Shown piece after piece: positions 53,076-56,705 of a stretch of DNA of 58,177 nt (position 1 is the first letter of the stretch; every line of letters begins with the position of its first letter). The stretch is from an uncultured Synergistales bacterium (GTDB lineage Bacteria > Synergistota > Synergistia > Synergistales > Aminobacteriaceae). Location of the stretch: NCBI GenBank assembly GCA_905235735.1, contig CAJOMU010000009.1, positions 1 through 58,177 on the forward strand, given 5' to 3'. The notes under the pieces are model-generated. The model was given only the letters and a program-made list of their open reading frames with translations, had not been told where the DNA came from and searched no databases. Both the position numbers and the translations under genes were made by a program.

Positions 53076-54275
53076 ATGAAGAGGATTGCAATAGTAGGAG
53101 GATGCGGTCATGTAGGTTTTCCTCTTGGCCTTGCATTGTCCAAAGGTTGCACAAAATACGTAACTGGGGGGGGGCAAAATTACGTAGACCTCATTGACGT
53201 AAACACCGAAGTCATAAACGAAATCAATGCCGGAAAAGTCCCGTTTCAGGAAGAAGGAGCAGAAGAGATACTGAGAGAAGCACTTGAAGCGGGAACATTG
53301 AAAGCCACATCGGACATGAACAGCGTCAAAGAAGCAGATGCAGTGATCTTCGTAACAGGAACGCCAGTAGACGAACACTTGAACCCAAGAATACGAGACA
53401 TAACCAGCGTAATAAAGTTATATCTTCCGTACATGAAGCCCAATCAATTAATCATACTTCGTTCGACAATTTTTCCCGGAGTATTCAGAGTAATCGAGAA
53501 CATGTTGACGAAAGCCTTCAATGTGAAACCCAAACTCGCATTCTGTCCTGAAAGAATCGTACAGGGAAGAGGAATTCAGGAGATATTCACATTGCCGCAG
53601 TTAGTATCAGGGAACTCAGCCGAAGCAATTCACGAAGCCTCAGAGATATTTTCGCGTATAGCACCGAAGATAATAGAACTTGAACCTGAAGAAGCAGAAC
53701 TTGCGAAGCTCCTCACAAATTCATGGAGGTACTTGGAGTTTGCGATAGCGAATCAGTTCTACATGATGGTAGAAGAAAAAGGTTACGACTTCTACAAGAT
53801 ACTGAACGCTTTATCAGATGATTATCCGAGAGCGAAACATTTTGCGCGTGCAGGATTTGCGGCAGGGCCATGCTTATTTAAGGATACCATGCAGTTAAGT
53901 GCATTCTATAACAACAAGTTCTTTCTAGGTCAGGCAGGAATGCTCGTGAATGAAGGACTTCCTGATTTCGTAGTGAGTCAGCTAGAGAGACGCATGGGTT
54001 CACTGAAGGACAAGAAGATAGCGATACTTGGAATGACATTCAAGGCGAATAACGATGACACGAGAGAGAGTTTATCATTCAAGGTTAGAAAAAATCTTGA
54101 GTTCAGAATGGCAGAAGTTCTCATACATGACCCATATCTGAACACAGCCTCACTTGAGGAAGTATTATCGCAGGCAGACGGAGTGATACTCGGAGTACCG
54201 CACAAAGAATATCAGAACTTGAAGATAGAAGTTCCGTATGTAGACTGCTGGAATGTGTGGAGAAAGAAGAATTAA
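53076..54275 (+). CDS. Nucleotide-sugar dehydrogenase (UDP-glucose/GDP-mannose family) with G9 tract
   Basis: 399 residues. NAD-binding IAIVGGCGHVGFPLGLALSK, then VIFVTGTPVDEHLNPRIRDI, RSTIFPGVFRVIENM, FCPERIVQGRGIQEI, the catalytic segment FAAGPCLFKDTMQLSAF and C-terminal domain ILGMTFKANNDDTRES. The enzyme oxidises the C6 hydroxyl of a UDP- or GDP-sugar to a uronic acid for surface glycan. Between the first beta strand/helix and LIDVNTEV is an extra stretch, CTKYVTGGGQN, encoded by a run of nine Gs flanked by imperfect direct repeats (53152-53186). Any one-base change in that run would truncate the protein after about 35 residues. GGGAG lies 10 bases upstream. Confidence 0.9.
   Translation: MKRIAIVGGCGHVGFPLGLALSKGCTKYVTGGGQNYVDLIDVNTEVINEINAGKVPFQEEGAEEILREALEAGTLKATSDMNSVKEADAVIFVTGTPVDEHLNPRIRDITSVIKLYLPYMKPNQLIILRSTIFPGVFRVIENMLTKAFNVKPKLAFCPERIVQGRGIQEIFTLPQLVSGNSAEAIHEASEIFSRIAPKIIELEPEEAELAKLLTNSWRYLEFAIANQFYMMVEEKGYDFYKILNALSDDYPRAKHFARAGFAAGPCLFKDTMQLSAFYNNKFFLGQAGMLVNEGLPDFVVSQLERRMGSLKDKKIAILGMTFKANNDDTRESLSFKVRKNLEFRMAEVLIHDPYLNTASLEEVLSQADGVILGVPHKEYQNLKIEVPYVDCWNVWRKKN
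53152..53186 (+). repeat. G9 tract flanked by direct repeats
   Basis: CAAAATACGTA (53152-53162), then ACT, nine Gs (53166-53174), then CAAAATTACGTA (53175-53186). It lies inside the dehydrogenase reading frame, currently in frame. Confidence 0.85.
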
Positions 54276-54276
54276 C

Positions 54277-55299
54277 ATGAAGATATTAGTTACAGGTTCA
54301 GCGGGATTTATCTGCGGTTATCTGGTTGAAGAGCTGCTCGAACGAGGCCATGAAGTAATCGGCATAGATAATTTCTCGAAGTACGGCAAGGTTGAGAAGA
54401 GTTACGACAATCACCCGAACTATCACTTTGTAGAAGGCGATGCAAAGAACACGGGCTTAATGAAGGAATTGATTTCAGATTGCGACCAGGTATTAGCATC
54501 AGCGGCGATGATAGGAGGAATATCATACTTTCATCATTACGCGTATGATTTGCTTGCGGAGAACGACAGGATAACGGCCTCAACATTTGACGCGGCGATA
54601 TGGGCGCATGAACACAGGAAGTTGAAGAAGATAAACATACTGAGTTCAAGTATGGTGTATGAATCAGCGGAGAAATTCCCAAGTCATGAAGGAGATGAAC
54701 ATAAATGTCCTCCTCCATTGAGCACATACGGATTTCAGAAGTTAGCATGTGAATACTATGCACAGGGAGCAAATGAGCAATACGGTCTGCCATACACGAT
54801 AATACGGCCATTCAACTGTGTAGGAACAGGTGAGAAGCGAGCGTTATGTGATAGTGAGATACTCTCAGGGAATGTGAAACTCGCAATGTCTCATGTAGTA
54901 CCTGATTTAGTGCAGAAGGTCTTGAAGGGTCAAAATCCTTTGCATATTCTGGGTTCAGGAAAACAGGTGAGGCATTACACATACGGAGGAGATTTAGCGA
55001 GAGGAATTCGTATGTGCATTGAGAGTGATAAATCAGTCAATGAAGATTTCAATCTGTCTACACCAGTATCAACGAGTGTATTAGAACTAGCACAAGCAAT
55101 CTGGAAGAAGATACACGGTGATTCGCTTCCGTTTTCATATGTCAGTGATGAACCATTCAAGTATGACGTACAGATGAGAGTACCAGATACGGAGAAGGCA
55201 GAACGATTGTTGGGTTTCAGGGCCGAGACGACACTAGATGAGATTTTAGACGAAGTAATTCCGTGGATAAGCGAGCAGGTGAGGACGGGCGGAATATGA
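54277..55299 (+). CDS. NAD-dependent sugar epimerase/dehydratase
   Basis: 340 residues of the extended short-chain dehydrogenase family: ILVTGSAGFICGYLVEEL at the start, GHEVIGIDNFSKYG, the region ILSSSMVYESAEKFPSHEGD with the catalytic Ser/Thr, STYGFQKLACEYYA (Tyr-x3-Lys), and YTIIRPFNCVGTGEK. It acts on a nucleotide-linked sugar; the product cannot be identified. ATG 54277 is one base after the dehydrogenase stop; an earlier in-frame codon at 54253 overlaps that gene. Ends with an ATGA overlap into the GT2 gene. Confidence 0.9.
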   Translation: MKILVTGSAGFICGYLVEELLERGHEVIGIDNFSKYGKVEKSYDNHPNYHFVEGDAKNTGLMKELISDCDQVLASAAMIGGISYFHHYAYDLLAENDRITASTFDAAIWAHEHRKLKKINILSSSMVYESAEKFPSHEGDEHKCPPPLSTYGFQKLACEYYAQGANEQYGLPYTIIRPFNCVGTGEKRALCDSEILSGNVKLAMSHVVPDLVQKVLKGQNPLHILGSGKQVRHYTYGGDLARGIRMCIESDKSVNEDFNLSTPVSTSVLELAQAIWKKIHGDSLPFSYVSDEPFKYDVQMRVPDTEKAERLLGFRAETTLDEILDEVIPWISEQVRTGGI

Positions 55300-56009
55300 T
55301 ACTGAGCATAATAATTCCGGTCTACAATGAGGGAGCGAATATCAGGCAAGCAATAGATGCGATAAATGCAAAGCTGAAGTATGAGCATGAGATATTAATC
55401 GTATATGACTTTGACGAGGATAACACTTTACCTGTGATTCGTGAACTTGGCCAGGCTAACATAAAGCTTGTGAAGAATGCATACGGACGAGGAGCATTGA
55501 ACGCAATCAAGACGGGACTAGCATCAGGAACAGGGAAGTATGAGATAGTAACGATGGCAGATTTGTCAGACCCACCTGAAGTGATGAACTCGATGATTGA
55601 AGTTGCGGAACAGGATAATGCATCAGTCATATGTGCATCTAGATACATGAAGGGCGGTTCACAGCATACGCATTCATTGAAGATGTTCATCAAGGGAATA
55701 ATGTCTCGTACAGCAGGAGTGAGTTTGTACTGGTTTGCAGGAGTACCTACACATGACGCAACGAATAGCTTCAAGCTGTATGCAAAAACATTTCTAGAAA
55801 GGGTAACGATTGAGAGCAGTGGAGGCTTTGAGCTTGGAATTGAACTTGTGGTGAAGGCGTTTGCAATGGGCTTATTGATTCGGGAAGTTCCAACGGAATG
55901 GCACGACCGCACAGCAGGACAATCACGTTTCAAGATAATCAAATGGCTTCCGAATTATCTTCACTGGTACATATATGCATTTACGCACAGACGAAAGAGG
56001 CAAAAGTAA
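55296..56009 (+). CDS. Family 2 glycosyltransferase (dolichol-phosphate-mannose-synthase-like)
   Basis: 237 residues, soluble GT-A fold: LSIIIPVYNEGANIRQAIDA, ILIVYDFDEDNTLPVIREL, YGRGALNAIKTGLASGTGKY, MADLSDPPEVMNSMI (DxD-like metal site) and a C-terminal TEWHDRTAGQSRFK. It transfers a sugar to a lipid or glycan acceptor. No C-terminal membrane helices, unlike many relatives. The start (55296) overlaps the epimerase stop, and the methyltransferase follows after 12 bases. Confidence 0.9.
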   Translation: MILSIIIPVYNEGANIRQAIDAINAKLKYEHEILIVYDFDEDNTLPVIRELGQANIKLVKNAYGRGALNAIKTGLASGTGKYEIVTMADLSDPPEVMNSMIEVAEQDNASVICASRYMKGGSQHTHSLKMFIKGIMSRTAGVSLYWFAGVPTHDATNSFKLYAKTFLERVTIESSGGFELGIELVVKAFAMGLLIREVPTEWHDRTAGQSRFKIIKWLPNYLHWYIYAFTHRRKRQK

Positions 56010-56021
56010 GGAAGGATAATA

Positions 56022-56705
56022 ATGGAACTTGAGAAGTTATATTCAAACCGGTTTGAATCAGATACATGGAAGAAACGTAATGCACTCTGGAAGATTTTAT
56101 GTGATGAGTTCTTCAGCAAATATCTCAAACCTTCAGATGATATTCTTGACTTGGCCGCTGGTTATTGTGATTTTATCAACAACATATGCCGTGATAATCA
56201 CATGGGCAGACGTATAGCAGTAGACCTGAATCCAGATGTGAGAGAACACTCAGCACCTTTCGTTGAAGTTCATAATACGATGGCACAGAATCTCAGCTTT
56301 CTCGATGATAATTCGATTGATGCAGTCTTCGTATCAAACTTCTTCGAGCATGTACGCGACAAGGATGACATAATCGCAATCTTGAATGAATGTCTGAGAG
56401 TTCTGCGCGTCAACGGGAAAATCATGATTCTTCAGCCGAACATAAAGTATCTTCCGGGACAGTACTGGGACTTCTTCGATCACTACACGCCGTTGACCGA
56501 GAAGAGTATGTGTGAAGCATTGAGTATATCTTCTGTAAGGGGGGGGGGGTACAGCATAATTACTGTAATTGATAAATTTCTGCCCTATACAACAAAGAGT
56601 CGTCTTCCACAATATGACTGGATGATTAAGCTGTACTGTCATTGTCCATTAGCGTGGAGGATATTGGGAAAACAGATGTTCATGATTGCCGAAAAAAGAA
56701 CATAA
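56022..56705 (+). CDS. SAM-dependent methyltransferase with G11 tract
   Basis: 227 residues of the class I methyltransferase fold: DDILDLAAGYCDFINNI (motif I), RIAVDLNPDVREH, MAQNLSFLDDNSIDAVFVSN, FFEHVRDKDDIIAILNECLR and GKIMILQPNIKYLPGQYWDF. The C-terminal part has FLPYTTKSRLPQYDWMIKLY. Such enzymes in glycan cassettes cap or decorate sugar chains. A run of eleven Gs (56539-56549) encodes part of SSVRGGGYS near residue 175, in frame at present; loss or gain of one G would cut off the last ~50 residues. GGAAGG is seen before the ATG. Confidence 0.87.
   Translation: MELEKLYSNRFESDTWKKRNALWKILCDEFFSKYLKPSDDILDLAAGYCDFINNICRDNHMGRRIAVDLNPDVREHSAPFVEVHNTMAQNLSFLDDNSIDAVFVSNFFEHVRDKDDIIAILNECLRVLRVNGKIMILQPNIKYLPGQYWDFFDHYTPLTEKSMCEALSISSVRGGGYSIITVIDKFLPYTTKSRLPQYDWMIKLYCHCPLAWRILGKQMFMIAEKRT
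56533..56554 (+). repeat. G11 tract flanked by a short inverted repeat
   Basis: CTGTA (56533-56537), AA, eleven Gs (56539-56549), then TACAG (56550-56554). It lies inside the methyltransferase gene. Confidence 0.85.

Follow-up and report, generated by a model that had tools for sequence, protein, structure and literature searches.

A run of nine guanines inside a nucleotide-sugar dehydrogenase gene is very probably a translational contingency locus, one of about a dozen switches in its genome, by which a glycan would be turned ON and OFF at random. The run lies in a contig of 58,177 nt from an uncultured Synergistales bacterium, hereafter called the window, and among named relatives those nearest to this genome, MAGs of Synergistales/Synergistaceae, come from reindeer, red deer and goat rumen, in agreement with the Synergistota assignment of the first-pass annotation. 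The mechanism, repeat-mediated phase variation, is a known one, and comparison between genomes supports it well here.

In the proposed mechanism, DNA polymerase slippage on the run would add or remove Gs: 9, 12 or 15 Gs would give the full dehydrogenase, and other lengths an early stop. The enzyme would tolerate the gain or loss of a glycine because the run encodes a flexible loop. Cells would thus switch the dehydrogenase, and hence presumably a surface glycan, at random, and the presumed benefit would be escape from phage, from immunity, or from both.

The G9 run and its gene cluster

The proposed switch and the gene that carries it are the following:

53166 to 53174, + strand: G9 run, the proposed switch (read directly; frame computed for each length; orthologs carry G12, G12 and G10)
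53076 to 54275, + strand: nucleotide-sugar dehydrogenase of the UDP-glucose/GDP-mannose family, 399 aa, ON in the assembly (ORF, Pfam, PDB relatives, AlphaFold2 model)

The 399-codon ORF contains the run in frame. Its product is a member of the UDP-glucose/GDP-mannose dehydrogenase family, predicted to oxidise a nucleotide sugar: the N, central and C domains of the family (Pfam UDPG_MGDP_dh; PF03721, PF00984 and PF03720) all exceed their curated cut-offs, as expected from the first-pass annotation of the gene, and the solved relatives in the PDB include a UDP-ManNAcA dehydrogenase. When the frames were computed for each run length, a full-length protein (398-401 aa) was obtained only with 6, 9, 12 or 15 Gs. 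All other counts end translation at 36-41 aa, within about 10 codons of the run, close to the truncation near residue 35 that had been anticipated from a single slip.

In the AlphaFold2 model (mean pLDDT 76.5), the run-encoded glycines, at about residues 31-33, belong to the loop that follows helix 14-22 and precedes strand 36-40, that is, the alpha1-beta2 loop joining the first Rossmann helix to the second strand. Residues 28-31 have a pLDDT below 50 and form a disordered loop in the model, and one glycine more or fewer at this position should be harmless. Outgroup dehydrogenases (Gastranaerophilales and Kiritimatiellae) lack a loop insertion of about 9-10 residues; relative to them the tract does sit within an insertion, in line with the one that the annotation had described against the family pattern.

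A comparison of the tract across related genomes had been suggested as a check, and it revealed several lengths. The window allele has G9 and is ON; the ortholog of a reindeer MAG (G012), 95% identical, and that of a goat rumen MAG (G005) both have G12 and are ON; in G022 the run is G10 and OFF, with the two halves of the gene in different frames; and the red deer MAG (G036) carries a tract-less allele with GGG at the run position. In two further genomes the assembly breaks at this site: in G028 the contig stops after 11 Gs and the remainder of the gene starts another contig, and in G034 a contig ends near the tract site. Three of the four readable tract alleles are therefore ON, and drift is not proven for the dehydrogenase by itself.

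The window holds a second long run, absent from the first-pass annotation, in the same gene cluster:

54277 to 55299, + strand: NAD-dependent epimerase/dehydratase adjoining the dehydrogenase (ORF, PF01370; start codon picked by eye)
55296 to 56009, + strand: family 2 glycosyltransferase of the same cluster (ORF, PF00535; start codon picked by eye)
56022 to 56705, + strand: methyltransferase interrupted by the G11 run (ORF, PF08241)
56539 to 56549, + strand: second run, G11, ON, full protein with 8, 11 or 14 Gs (orthologs G8, G12, G7 and one tract-less allele)

The methyltransferase is three genes on from the dehydrogenase, after the epimerase and the family 2 glycosyltransferase, and its computed translation stops at 178-183 aa with G counts other than 8, 11 and 14. 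Among its orthologs we found G11, G8, G12 and G7, in addition to the tract-less allele, in which the frame is broken. For both genes the length differences are those between species (MAGs), and slippage within a single population is inferred.

Two side observations concern this cluster. The tract-less methyltransferase ortholog, from G034 (L237/L242), has an inverted repeat, TTGCATG-TGTTTT-CATGCAA, where other species have the G-run. A homolog of the family 2 glycosyltransferase in a Gastranaerophilales MAG is interrupted by G10 (L055:6559-6568), and about 20 homologs have no run.

A genus-wide set of long G-runs

As the annotation had supposed, such runs are beyond chance. Under a first-order Markov model, the window should contain 0.02 G/C runs of at least 9 and has 2; the genome (2.1 Mb) should contain 0.9 and has 11. 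In 442 kb, both strands considered, runs of 5, 6, 7 and 8 Gs number 76, 10, 4 and 3, and those of at least 9 number 11; since the counts rise again at this length, the long runs form a separate class. Every one of the 37 genus genomes from the first search has them, with 2 to 59 per genome.

The tract set collected from the genus genomes comprises 158 tracts, with lengths of 9-23 and a mode of 10-12. Of those inside genes, 105 place G and 9 place C on the coding strand. Among the tract genes with at least 60 open codons on both sides, 16/60 are in frame and 44/60 out of frame, and the in-frame share is near the one third that random drift in run length would give. A Pfam scan of 40 tract genes returned mostly glycan or surface genes: GT92, Caps_synth, GT2, GT4, GT11, polysaccharide pyruvyl transferase, LicD and FdtA, besides SDR, sulfatase, acyltransferases, radical SAM, one histidine kinase and a polymorphic-membrane-protein-like repeat protein, with 9/40 lacking a match. 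In the window genome, with frames judged by eye, the GT92, Caps_synth, dehydrogenase and methyltransferase genes are ON, and the radical SAM, VOC-family, FdtA and SDR genes are OFF.

The intergenic tracts present a different layout. In 13/34 of them, the run is preceded by a TTGACA box (with up to one mismatch) and followed by a TATAAT-like box, against 1.4 in shuffled sequences (maximum 4), and the same layout is found in 3/102 intragenic tracts, against 2.6 in shuffles. The spacers are mostly 18-21 nt long, and in the window genome three runs of this type are followed by an ATG 48-71 nt further on. Runs in promoter spacers would tune transcription through their length, which is the already known, here predicted, transcriptional form of phase variation. 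In Neisseria porA, a homopolymer lies between the -35 and -10 boxes and its length sets the promoter spacing. Intergenic runs of the genus, though not the dehydrogenase run, resemble it in lying between the same two boxes, where their length would likewise set the spacing. The switches of the genome would thus comprise coding G-runs, mostly in glycan genes, and runs in promoter spacers.

Taken together, we found what would be expected of contingency loci: length beyond chance, an effect on frame or spacing as judged by sequence, ON/OFF length differences between genomes and, among the tract genes scanned, a bias towards glycan and surface genes. The length-dependent ON/OFF switch in a glycan gene that the first-pass annotation had described is thus upheld by the dehydrogenase orthologs, and the switch does not stand alone but belongs to a genus-wide set.

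A glycine-rich loop kept for its structure, with no switch involved, is plausible at this position of the dehydrogenase model and would agree with the ON state of the window genome and of two orthologs. We consider it very improbable, given the G10 OFF ortholog and the tract-less allele, the large out-of-frame share among tract genes, and the fact that glycine does not need pure G codons. Long homopolymers can also slip during RNA synthesis, and slippage of the transcript or of the ribosome could mix frames from any DNA length, making the run a dimmer rather than a DNA switch. Nevertheless, the DNA length itself differs between orthologs of both the dehydrogenase and the methyltransferase, and no such action is possible for the runs in promoter spacers, which leaves this reading little room.

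At least 13/138 tracts have a contig end within 60 bp, as counted by hand, against about 0.5 expected, an excess which fits length heterogeneity and equally poor sequencing. That the runs are artefacts of assembly or sequencing, for example two-colour poly-G signal joined into contigs, is nonetheless the least credible explanation, since MAGs from several studies carry them at the same codon position, tens of genomes have them within contigs and with a constant strand preference, and their flanks bear a motif. A by-product of lost mismatch repair is ruled out: MutS_I and MutL_C domains are present in the window genome and in nearly all genus genomes, so that slippage would proceed more slowly than where these proteins are missing. 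One genus genome (G005; C72 and C98) has two MutS_I matches, one of them in an open frame that is shorter (426 aa).

Long G-runs of another kind were seen in Gastranaerophilales and similar gut MAGs (G067-G074; loci L053-L060, L071 and L074), with 37-176 runs of at least 9 each. In G068, 169/176 runs are exactly 10 long, nearly all as C-G10-C, and along its contigs C1-C5 the runs keep one orientation over whole contigs, with a single flip in C3 at about 123-163 kb. Such a pattern suggests a fixed-length, replichore-polarised element rather than a slippage tract.

Shared flanks and the origin of the tracts

The sequences beside the two window runs are the following:

53152 to 53162, + strand: left copy of a direct repeat, CAAAATACGTA (read directly; G012 has CAAAATATGTA instead)
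53175 to 53186, + strand: right copy of the direct repeat, CAAAATTACGTA (read directly; similar 3' flanks at other tracts of the window genome and G012)
53157 to 53165, + strand: instance of a shared 5' motif, TACGTAACT, abutting the G9 run (7.7 bits; the site is within the motif training set)
56521 to 56529, + strand: another occurrence of this motif, TGAGTATAT, separated from the G11 run by 9 nt (8.2 bits)

The 5' flanks of tracts in unrelated genes share the motif T[ACG][CA]G[TC]AA[TA]T (approximately TNMGTAAWT). Its log-likelihood by EM is 113, against 46-53 for random windows; a 16-mer model on the non-redundant intragenic tracts reaches 139, against 65-82, with sites mostly ending 0-7 nt from the run. 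In these non-redundant intragenic tracts the motif was observed 23 times, against 3.5 in dinucleotide shuffles, and exact 11-mers common to non-homologous 5' flanks number 50, against about 5 expected. On held-out tracts (G027, G010 and G031; n = 78), 23 exceed 7.5 bits, against 3.3% of background windows; on G012, 9/23 do, and 10/12 matches above 6 bits lie 9-10 nt from the run. Among the held-out tracts, the non-redundant intragenic ones have the motif in 8/41 cases, against 1.3 in dinucleotide shuffles (maximum 5), and the remaining ones in 13/27, partly as a -10 box read backwards; the signal is thus weaker in intragenic tracts. At short G-runs, a scan of 442 kb found no enrichment of the motif.

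Several explanations of the motif were rejected. It is not a product of the protein sequence, being present in all reading frames; composition alone is discarded by the shuffles, for the non-redundant intragenic tracts and for the held-out ones alike. It is not an in-gene promoter: -35-like hexamers occur 5' of 14/74 intragenic tracts, against a background of 0.18, and the promoter-like layouts of intragenic tracts do not exceed those in shuffles. Finally, it differs in sequence from the CodY box of Synergistetes (PMC9318921). The shared 5' motif, confirmed on held-out genomes, is real, and an unexplained extra beside the known mechanism of phase variation.

One reading is that contingency tracts are marked by a specialised DNA element, made up of about TNMGTAAWT and an AT-rich spacer and ending a few nt 5' of the G-run, which would help tracts to arise or to slip, for example through stalling of the polymerase, nicking or directed addition of Gs. 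We regard this as speculative and rather unlikely; if true, new phase-variable genes would be made by a system, not by chance. The shared flanks may reflect selection for surroundings in which slippage is easier, or else a bias in mutation.

Homologs with and without tracts bear on how the runs arise. An Arg-Gly-Gly-Gly stretch, CGCGGAGGAGGG, in the tract-less L278 corresponds to A-G12 in its homolog L198; the tandem paralogs of L144 are about equally long with and without the run; and in a GT4 family a loop of about 7-11 residues is found whether or not it holds the run. Such equal or similar lengths speak for a change of the existing sequence rather than for an inserted cassette, and inside genes we found no close alleles differing by one clean insertion. 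The authors of PhasomeIt list four routes to new contingency tracts, including glycine codons that become a G-run (PMC6321876), and our three cases fit this route.

Alternatively, the run could have arrived in a small mobile cassette, made of motif and G-run and inserted into many genes. The 5' flanks common to unrelated genes, the flank likeness, which is greatest for the window genome and G012 and extends there to the 3' side, and the dehydrogenase loop longer than in outgroups would all agree with it. The same authors expect repeats that spread by recombination to be surrounded by similar sequence, and observed this only for cj1421c/cj1422c (PMC6321876). Within most of our genomes, flank similarity across unrelated genes is no higher than between genomes, so recent copying is not a simple answer. 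Moreover, around tracts in general, permutation revealed no locus-specific inverted repeats (p 0.7-0.9) and at most weak direct repeats (p 0.02-0.14 by window size), and tract and tract-less homologs differ in place. The cassette thus appears very improbable.

The nearly identical repeats of 11 and 12 nt flanking the G9 run, which the first-pass annotation had pointed out, do exist: along 53152-53186 the order, read directly, is CAAAATACGTA, then ACT, then GGGGGGGGG, then CAAAATTACGTA. Its proposal that the run arose when the left copy was duplicated locally did not hold up and is most unlikely, since G012, whose ortholog is 95% identical, has an imperfect pair and G005, G022 and G028 have none, the flanks belong to the motif common to unrelated tracts, and the general direct-repeat signal is unclear.

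Two single cases in G012 may be recorded here. A 145-nt intergenic stretch with G10, which has a pilin gene on one side and a GspF/PilC-like gene on the other (names by eye), is absent from the window genome (L274 vs L168). At G012:C19:11186-13068 (L280), a tract-interrupted GT4 gene is directly followed by a second ORF that repeats only the GT4 C-terminal half, 81% identical; it has its own ATG and begins at the residue following the G-run, and domain swapping is possible.

Comparison with known systems

In the open-access literature, we found no earlier account of phase variation driven by repeats in Synergistota. How new contingency tracts are born can be tested directly in this genus, thanks to the shared 5' motif and to the numerous homologs with and without tracts. 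For metagenomics, G-runs break contigs and make genuine glycan genes resemble pseudogenes.

The poly-G genes of Helicobacter canadensis, in another phylum, offer a partial parallel: homopolymer-driven phase variation there is reported to include C-terminal sequence switching (PMC2823697), and the GT92 run of the window genome lies 22 codons from the gene end.

The closest likeness is with the poly-G loci of Campylobacter (PMC6321876). There too, runs are mostly 9-12 long, mainly intragenic and in surface-modification genes, G is on the coding strand with few poly-C tracts (5% there, 9/114 here), and the share of ON genes is near neutral drift. The two differ in phylum, in the maximum run length, which reaches 23 in the Synergistota genus, and in the surroundings of the repeats, which are similar only for the cj1421c/cj1422c pair in Campylobacter, whereas here a 5' motif is common to tracts. 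With up to 59 G-runs per genome, this uncultured ruminant-gut genus would rank with Campylobacter in its reliance on contingency genes.
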